From Candidatus Hecatella orcuttiae (GTDB lineage Archaea; Thermoproteota; Bathyarchaeia; Hecatellales; Hecatellaceae): a stretch of 64,000 nucleotides of DNA. The translations under genes and the position numbers were made by a program. Positions 12,047-14,282 of this stretch are shown one piece after another (positions within the stretch are counted from its first letter, which is position 1; every line of letters starts with the position of its first letter). The notes under the pieces are model-generated. The model was not told the DNA's origin. It searched no databases and was given only the letters and a program-made list of their open reading frames with translations. The stretch covers positions 310,001-374,000 of the forward strand of contig MTLY02000002.1 of the NCBI GenBank assembly GCA_002011035.2, written 5' to 3'.

Positions 12047-12200
12047 TGGTGCCCAGGGCAGGGTTTGAACCTGCGATTGGGCCGGCCTTTGGTCAAGGGC
12101 GGAAGGCCGTCAACCCGGTCTTCAGCTTCACCTACCACCTGCCTTGAGGCGGTATCGGGCGCTCTCCTTAGCCTTTGAGATCAGGCTGAGCTACCTGGGC
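12047..12200 (-). tRNA. tRNA-Phe (GAA) with three putative introns
   Basis: The acceptor strands GCCCAGG (12194-12200) and CCTGGGC (12051-12057) pair, with an encoded discriminator A and CCA (12047-12050). The T arm is GCAGG-TTCAAAC-CCTGC. The anticodon loop CTGAAGA with 3' strand CCGGG gives anticodon GAA at 12121-12123. Three insertions interrupt an otherwise standard 77-nt tRNA-Phe: about 14 nt in the D loop (near 12168-12181), 29 nt in the 5' anticodon strand between CCCG and G (12127-12155), and about 34 nt in the variable region (near 12077-12110). The second and third contain clear hairpins (ACCGCC/GGTGGT and GGCCTT/AAGGCC). Exact splice points are ambiguous by 1-2 nt. Confidence 0.8.
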
Positions 12201-12328
12201 TCAAACATGTGGACGCAGTTTGGGCACATAAATCTTTCTATGAATCTTTCAGGACAACTCTCCTTTTGTTCATGCGGAGTAAGGGTTACAGTGCCCTTGG
12301 GTAGTGTTGACTTGGAGGGGCTTTCCAC
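12191..12328 (-). CDS. Possible 45-residue CPxC protein read into the tRNA-Phe gene
   Basis: A GTG at 12326-12328 opens a frame ending with TAG inside the first bases of tRNA-Phe. The product contains TPHEQKESCPERFIERF then MCPNCVHMFEPR, with a CPNC pair and an upstream CPER that could bind zinc. The overlap with tRNA position 1-10 argues against it, while the zinc-knuckle look argues for it. It lies divergent from the PEPCK gene. Treat as a weak call. Confidence 0.25.
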   Translation of the reverse strand: MESPSKSTLPKGTVTLTPHEQKESCPERFIERFMCPNCVHMFEPR

Positions 12329-12377: not shown

Positions 12378-14282
12378 TTGGAGGAAATTGCTGTGAAGGA
12401 TGCCGCCCCCGGCTTCGGAGAAATACTCAAAACCCGGCTGGATGAGGAAGCTTATCGAAGGCTTCTAAGAATAGATAACCCTGCGCTCCACCACTTTGTG
12501 GCAAAATATGTGGAACTCTGCAATCCGGACAGGGTTTACGTCTCCCAGGGCTCGGCGGAGGATATAGAATACATAAAGAATACGGCGGTGAAAAACGGGG
12601 AAGAAATCAAGCTTGCCACAGAAGGCCATACCGTTCACTTCGACAACTACAAGGACCAAGCGAGAGACCGGGAGCACACGTTGCTGCTCGTCTCCAAGGG
12701 GAGGGAGCTAGGCCCTAAGCTGAGGACAGGGGACAGAGAAGAGAAGCTGAAGGAAATTCACGAAATCCTGAAAAACATCATGCAAGGCCATGAGCTCTAT
12801 GTTTGCTTTTACACCCTAGGCCCAGCGGGCTCGGAGTTCACTATACCCTGTGTTCAGCTCACAGACTCCAGTTATGTGGCTCACAGTGAAAACATTCTCT
12901 ACAGGCAGGGATACGAAGAATTCGTCAGGCAGGGCCGCCAAGCCCGACCGTTTAAGTTTGTCCATTCCCAAGGCAAACTGGATGAGAGGAAAACCTCCAC
13001 GAACCTAGACAAGCGCAGAATATACATCGACATCGAAGGTGACACTGTGTACAGTGCTAACACCCAGTACGGCGGCAACTCCATCGGCCTCAAGAAGTTG
13101 GCCATGCGTTTGGCGATAAACCGCGCGTCCAAGGAAGGTTGGTTGACGGAGCACATGCTCATCATGGGCATCCATGGGCCGAAAGGCAGAGTGACCTACT
13201 TCACCGGAGCTTTTCCCTCCATGTGCGGGAAAACCTCCACGGCCATGCTGGACGGTGAGACCATTGTAGGCGACGACATAGCCTACCTTCGAAAGAAAAA
13301 TGGCCGGGTTCGCGCCGTCAACGTGGAGAAAGGCGTTTTCGGAATAATTCAGGGAATTAACTCCAAAGATGACCCCATCCAATGGGAGGTGCTCCACAGC
13401 CCGGTGGAGGTGATTTTCTCCAACGTCCTCGTCACCGAAGACGGCCATGTGCACTGGACAGGGAAGGACGGCGAGGTTCCCCTGCGAGGCTACAACCATT
13501 CCGGTGAATGGTGGAAAGGTAAAAAAGACGAGAAGGGTAAAGAAATCCCCTGCTCCCATCCTAACGCTAGGTTCACCGTGGAATTAAAATATTTCAAGAA
13601 TCTAGATCCCCGCCTCGACGACCCTGAAGGAGTTGTGTTAGACGCCATTGTGTACGGCGGGAGAGATTCAAACACTTGGGTGCCAGTGGAGGAATCCTTC
13701 AACTGGGAGCACGGAATCATCACCAAGGGAGCCTCCCTAGAATCCGAAAGCACAGCCGCCACCTTAGGCGCGGAGGGCGTTCGGGAGTTTAATCCTATGT
13801 CGAACCTGGACTTTCTGTCGATACCCATCGGCCGATATATCGAGGACAACATCAACTTCGGCAAAGACTTGGCGAAGCCGCCTCGCATCTTCGCCGTTAA
13901 CTATTTTCTGAAAGGTGAAGATGGAAACTTCTTGACTGAGAAGACGGATAAGAAAGTTTGGTTTAAATGGATGGAGCTTCGTGTCCACGAAGATGTGGGC
14001 GCCATAGACACGCCTACTGGGAGGATACCTGTCTACGAAGACTTGAGGAAGCTGTTCCAGCTGGTGCTCGACAGACACTACGCTAAGGAAGCCTACATTA
14101 AACAGTTCACTGTCAGAGTTCAGGAAAACTTGGCTAAGATCGACCGAATAACCAAAATTTACAGGGAGTTAACCAGTGTACCTTCAAGGGTGTTCGAGGT
14201 GCTTGAAGAACAGAGGCAGAGGCTCATCCGAGCTAGAGAGAAGTATGGAGATTACATATCGCCCTTCGAACTCGCTTCTTAG
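12378..14282 (+). CDS. pckG: Phosphoenolpyruvate carboxykinase (GTP)
   Basis: The 634-residue enzyme interconverts oxaloacetate and PEP with GTP. It has the GTP-type signatures: YGGNSIGLKKLAMRLAI, HMLIMGIHGPKGRVTYFTGAFPSMCGKTSTAML with the kinase-1 loop near residues 276-289 and its reactive Cys, and VGDDIAYLRK (kinase 2). The first possible start is TTG at 12378. A GGAGG at 12380-12384 would better serve a GTG at 12393, so the true start may be five codons later. The gene is convergent with PEP carboxylase, with 21 bp between the stop codons, placing the gluconeogenic and anaplerotic enzymes side by side. Confidence 0.93.
   Translation: MEEIAVKDAAPGFGEILKTRLDEEAYRRLLRIDNPALHHFVAKYVELCNPDRVYVSQGSAEDIEYIKNTAVKNGEEIKLATEGHTVHFDNYKDQARDREHTLLLVSKGRELGPKLRTGDREEKLKEIHEILKNIMQGHELYVCFYTLGPAGSEFTIPCVQLTDSSYVAHSENILYRQGYEEFVRQGRQARPFKFVHSQGKLDERKTSTNLDKRRIYIDIEGDTVYSANTQYGGNSIGLKKLAMRLAINRASKEGWLTEHMLIMGIHGPKGRVTYFTGAFPSMCGKTSTAMLDGETIVGDDIAYLRKKNGRVRAVNVEKGVFGIIQGINSKDDPIQWEVLHSPVEVIFSNVLVTEDGHVHWTGKDGEVPLRGYNHSGEWWKGKKDEKGKEIPCSHPNARFTVELKYFKNLDPRLDDPEGVVLDAIVYGGRDSNTWVPVEESFNWEHGIITKGASLESESTAATLGAEGVREFNPMSNLDFLSIPIGRYIEDNINFGKDLAKPPRIFAVNYFLKGEDGNFLTEKTDKKVWFKWMELRVHEDVGAIDTPTGRIPVYEDLRKLFQLVLDRHYAKEAYIKQFTVRVQENLAKIDRITKIYRELTSVPSRVFEVLEEQRQRLIRAREKYGDYISPFELAS

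Follow-up and report, generated by a model that had tools for sequence, protein, structure and literature searches.

A tRNA-Phe gene with three introns

The window analysed here, a 64,000-nt stretch of Candidatus Hecatella orcuttiae (contig MTLY02000002.1, positions 310,001 to 374,000), contains on its minus strand (12200-12047) a tRNA-Phe(GAA) gene, which is very probably a working single-copy gene carrying three archaeal introns of the protein-spliced kind. Read 5' to 3' and with the introns bracketed, the gene is GCCCAGGTAGCTCAGCCTG[atctcaaaggctaa]GGAGAGCGCCCG[ataccgcctcaaggcaggtggtaggtgaa]GCTGAAGACCGGGTTG[acggccttccgcccttgaccaaaggccggcccaa]TCGCAGGTTCAAACCCTGCCCTGGGCACCA. The introns are exactly 14, 29 and 34 nt long and are located, in standard tRNA numbering, at 18/19 in the D loop, at 30/31 in the 5' anticodon strand and at 46/47 in the variable region. 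Their excision yields a perfect 77-nt cloverleaf with all stems paired, a GAA anticodon and an encoded CCA, in which the invariant bases and all cloverleaf pairs are intact. The initial annotation had described all parts of a 77-nt tRNA-Phe with three non-canonical insertions of about 14, 29 and 34 nt between 12047 and 12200; the coordinates and lengths proved exact, the strand is minus, and the three sites as well as the completeness of the tRNA were confirmed.

All exons and introns lie on the minus strand. Exon 1 (12182-12200), delimited by alignment to intron-less tRNA-Phe orthologues, comprises the 5' strand of the acceptor stem, positions 8-9, the 5' strand of the D-stem and the D loop through G18. 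Intron 1 (12168-12181) separates it from exon 2 (12156-12167), to which the same alignment assigns G19-G20-A21, the 3' strand of the D-stem, nt 26 and the anticodon-stem nt 27-30; joining of these two exons restores G18-G19. After intron 2 (12127-12155) follows exon 3 (12111-12126) with nt 31, the anticodon loop CTGAAGA (anticodon GAA), the 3' strand of the anticodon stem and the variable nt 44-46. Exon 4 (12047-12076), located behind intron 3 (12077-12110), includes the variable nt 47-48, the T arm, the 3' strand of the acceptor stem, the discriminator A and the encoded CCA, and its joining to exon 3 restores the variable region TTGTC.

By eye, a candidate A/T-rich TATA-like element, AAAGATTTATG, was recognized on the minus strand about 30 nt upstream of the gene (within 12201-12240), and a T run, CGATTTTTTG, is located directly 3' of it on the same strand. 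Further upstream the plus strand encodes a GTP-type PEP carboxykinase (12378-14282), a gene widespread in bacteria and archaea, whose nearest relatives (up to 74%) are found in WOR-3, Thermoplasmata, Aminicenantes and other unrelated phyla, a distribution that suggests horizontal transfer of the gene.

Bulge-helix-bulge motifs at the exon-intron junctions

All three junctions (3/3) display the bulge-helix-bulge (BHB) signature, which consists of a bulge xG|A, a 4-bp helix (4/4 pairs) and a bulge AA|x, and each of the introns starts with A and finishes with AA. The four nucleotides preceding the 5' bulge pair fully with those preceding the 3' bulge if G-U pairs are allowed. For intron 1 the elements are bulge TG|A, helix AGCC/GGCT and bulge AA|G, for intron 2 CG|A, CGCC/GGTG and AA|G, and for intron 3 TG|A, GGGT/GCCC and AA|T. 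Intron 2 possesses both an inner helix of 8 bp (TACCGCCT/AGGTGGTA) and an outer helix of 2 bp and thus forms a full BHB. Introns 1 and 3 are relaxed motifs, the former being devoid of an inner helix and the latter, with the inner helix CGGCCTT/AAAGGCCG, having little outer helix (weak or absent).

The occurrence of such helices by chance was estimated by shuffling the intron sequences. In 200,000 shuffles of the three introns, no case arose in which every junction had a 4-bp BHB helix as strong as that observed; the chance rates per site were 0.001, 0.023 and 0.047, corresponding to a product of about 1e-6. When the whole precursor is folded at minimum energy, its acceptor and T arms are kept, and the intron 3 motif and the central helix of intron 1 are formed. 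The central helix of intron 2 is replaced in this fold but does form if its region is folded in isolation; therefore, removal of the introns may be ordered. The intron 3 region folded alone was no more stable than its shuffles (z 0.20).

Copy number and detection of the gene

A second tRNA-Phe was not found in the 1.75-Mb genome with a tRNA-Phe pattern, the Rfam tRNA model or a tRNA-Phe-specific covariance model. According to the initial annotation, an intact second copy without a spliced product from this locus would mark the gene as degenerate; the pattern and the two models recovered only the locus at 12200-12047. Because the genome is 97.1% complete and consists of three contigs (estimated contamination 4.25%), a hidden second copy is unlikely. 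The locus, being the only tRNA-Phe gene found, should be essential.

The gene escaped detection by ARAGORN and by the Rfam tRNA model at gathering score. A covariance model of the mature tRNA-Phe scores it only at E 7.7e-4, so that lack of a match to this model in other genomes does not indicate absence of the gene there. A second model, whose training included introns, likewise did not report the tRNA-Phe of the window at E 1e-9.

Intron-less orthologues and shared intron sites in the class

We scanned 201 genomes of the class with a covariance model built from the spliced product; in a sample of 200 genomes the class comprises no fewer than 27 families and 84 genera. Within the same family, genome G006 harbors an intron-less tRNA-Phe which differs from the spliced product at 2 of 77 positions, and this close agreement fixes the intron boundaries independently. 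Intron-less tRNA-Phe genes were also detected in the same-family genomes G001, G003, G005 and G007. In an alignment of 17 sequences the intron-less orthologues align to the spliced product without gaps, and each of the three insertions coincides precisely with its predicted junction. The genomic neighborhood is not conserved: none of four neighboring proteins of the window (0/4) was found near the intron-less orthologues.

The sites themselves are used repeatedly in other genomes of the class, as determined by a spliced aligner. An intron at 30/31 of tRNA-Phe, with the same bulges, occurs in many families, and the 46/47 intron, with the same GGGT/GCCC helix, is present in G063 (locus L277) and G014 (L295). 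The 18/19 insertion recurs in G024 (L287) with a weaker motif. Moreover, tRNA-Phe introns in the T loop near 59/60 were found in all three of these loci, which belong to other families of the class. The tRNA-Phe of G024 carries three introns (18/19, 30/31 and T loop), and that of G014 probably has three as well. The helices of the 30/31 site show strong covariation in an analysis of 18 sequences, where 92.7% of the cells in the helices hold standard pairs versus 35-45% when the partners are slid, and 42 cells changed on both sides versus 13 expected from shuffles. As the exon half of the central helix belongs to the D and anticodon stems, the intron bases have followed changes in the exon.

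Introns in other tRNA genes

Many tRNA genes of the source genome contain introns, often at non-canonical positions and in some cases two or more, with several parses being approximate; introns are therefore a general trait of this genome. A tRNA-Lys(TTT) gene in L161 (contig C3, 675600-676300, plus strand, gene at about 374-524 of the locus) was parsed, again approximately, with three introns, the first of them directly after position 9. On the minus strand of L015 (contig C2, near 57000) a tRNA-Glu(TTC) was parsed with two D-arm introns, located after mature nt 12 and 21. Further long tRNA-like genes of 148-199 nt are located in L028 (C1, 85094-85254), L159 (C3, 553300-553950) and L136 (C1, near 357100), some of which may contain three or more introns on low-confidence parses. 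An origin of the tRNA-Phe introns as copies from other tRNAs was considered and rejected, as their similarity to the tRNA introns of the genome did not exceed that of shuffled controls (P 0.07, 0.24 and 0.40).

In genomes of the same family the tRNA-Tyr(GTA) genes carry a canonical 37/38 intron of 44-50 nt (L217 and L218 in G002, L219 in G004 and L220 in G005). G002 lists two copies of this gene, each at a contig end.

Splicing endonuclease and ligase

The initial annotation had recommended inspection of the endA genes for the heterotetrameric type, and two separate EndA genes are indeed encoded in the genome. EndA alpha (184 aa) matches the catalytic chain 3p1z_B of Aeropyrum pernix (1.2e-46) and retains the catalytic residues Tyr121, His129 and Lys160. 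Its Lys40, in the crenarchaea-specific loop, aligns with Lys44 of A. pernix, a residue to which broad specificity has been attributed (PMC6379350), and is invariant in 15 sequences (14 homologues and A. pernix). EndA beta (189 aa) is encoded just past the end of the window, with the match at contig position 374751-375140, and has no catalytic histidine. Judged by these sequence features, the genome encodes a predicted two-gene splicing endonuclease of the (alpha-beta)2 type, with an alpha subunit whose lysine loop is tied to broad specificity. Both subunits were detected in most genomes of the class sample, within which EndA alpha shares 51-74% identity, versus 47-51% with named MAGs of Nitrososphaeria, Methylarchaceae and Methanomethylicota. 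Together with the size of the class, these identities suggest a Bathyarchaeia-like lineage of TACK archaea as the probable affiliation. A gene for an RtcB ligase is present in the genome as well (1.6e-177).

We infer that transcription, cleavage, the order of removal and RtcB joining take place in the organism along the following lines. The precursor would keep its acceptor and T arms and fold into a BHB or relaxed BHB at the junctions. The (alpha-beta)2 endonuclease would then cut 3' of the second nucleotide in each 3-nt bulge, i.e., at xG|A on the 5' side and at AA|x on the 3' side, and an RtcB-type ligase would join the exons to a standard tRNA-Phe.

Alternative explanations

The failure of standard tRNA finders at this locus could be taken as a sign of a degenerate pseudogene with random insertions, with a functional tRNA-Phe encoded elsewhere, for instance in a gap of the 97% complete genome. 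Intact cloverleaf pairs and invariant bases after excision, three precise BHB junctions, the lack of any other tRNA-Phe found in the genome and the use of the same intron sites by other genomes of the class render this very improbable. An assembly in three contigs with 4.25% estimated contamination leaves some room for artefacts of assembly or sequencing. Such errors would not yield three BHB motifs sharing the bulges xGA and AAx. Moreover, in independent genomes the same sites carry introns with identical bulges, and we consider this explanation extremely unlikely.

It is likewise highly unlikely that the insertions are self-splicing introns (group I or II) or derive from a mobile element and are not spliced by an endonuclease. 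For Caldiarchaeum, tRNA introns have been suggested to originate from inserted mobile elements (PMC3293823), but the introns of different tRNAs in the present genome share no significant similarity. With 14-34 nt the insertions are far below the size of known self-splicing introns and match no Rfam intron family, and the BHB geometry together with the matching EndA in the genome speaks against both variants. Endonuclease-spliced archaeal introns thus remain the preferred reading.

Comparison with known multi-intron tRNAs

In archaea, tRNAs that contain as many as three introns have been described above all in Thermoproteales (PMC4390854, PMC4033280, PMC8450103). Reported three-intron tRNAs of Pyrobaculum include tRNA-Glu(UUC) of P. 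calidifontis and tRNA-Pro(UGG) of P. islandicum (PMC4390854, PMC8450103). These share with the tRNA-Phe described here three short protein-spliced introns, BHB or relaxed BHB motifs and a broad-specificity (alpha-beta)2 endonuclease; they differ in isotype and, most likely, in lineage. Multiple non-canonical tRNA introns also occur in Thaumarchaeota (PMC8450103) and in Caldiarchaeum (PMC3293823). Caldiarchaeum subterraneum, a member of the TACK archaea but not of Thermoproteales, has a tRNA-Thr(GGU) with multiple non-canonical introns, including one in the variable region; these are only two, however (24/25 and 45/46), and their sites neighbor those described here without being identical (PMC3293823). 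A eukaryotic parallel is the tRNA-Ile(UAU) of the red alga Cyanidioschyzon merolae, for which three introns are reported, located in its D, anticodon and T arms; organism, isotype and sites are different (PMC9602550).

Insertions comparable to intron 1 also occur in public MAGs. The tRNA-Phe genes of Methylarchaceae HK01M and archaeon H03B2 (L208/L209) as well as of Nitrososphaerales and Nitrososphaeria DRTY6_bin.124 (L210/L211) carry, at the same 18/19 site of the D loop, an insertion of about 14-15 nt with A at the start and AA at the end; for L208/L209 the spliced aligner places it 1 nt off the MAFFT alignment, with the shared A...AA boundaries kept. In contrast to the tRNA-Phe of the window, these genes contain either a single intron or an additional one in the region of the D-stem, and none at 30/31 or 46/47.

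Ordinary archaeal tRNA splicing and the published three-intron tRNAs of Pyrobaculum mean that this kind of gene is already known, though uncommon. The initial annotation was correct in that multi-intron tRNAs are known mainly from Thermoproteales, but overstated their rarity elsewhere, as tRNA introns abound in this genome and class and the same tRNA-Phe sites are occupied in relatives. No published three-intron case was found for this archaeal group; in a literature search on tRNA introns combined with Bathyarchaeota, the one paper retrieved names the group only in a footnote.

Implications for tRNA intron evolution

The gene represents a clean three-intron tRNA-Phe case with close intron-less relatives and probably lies outside the classic order. 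To a further proposal we assign slightly less than an even chance: multi-intron tRNA genes may have spread separately within the class, in parallel with Thermoproteales, so that the tRNA-Phe sites 18/19, 30/31, 37/38, 46/47 and 59/60 are filled in varying combinations from genome to genome. If this is true, the contrast between five intron-less genomes of the same family and the three introns found here implies that gain in this lineage, or loss in its relatives, was recent enough to be dated.

An essential tRNA that is invisible to common tRNA finders can make genomes of this group seem to be devoid of tRNA-Phe. Close relatives with zero introns beside a three-intron genome offer a clean comparison for the gain and loss of archaeal tRNA introns, and the same comparison bears on whether a broad-specificity splicing endonuclease permits such gain and loss.
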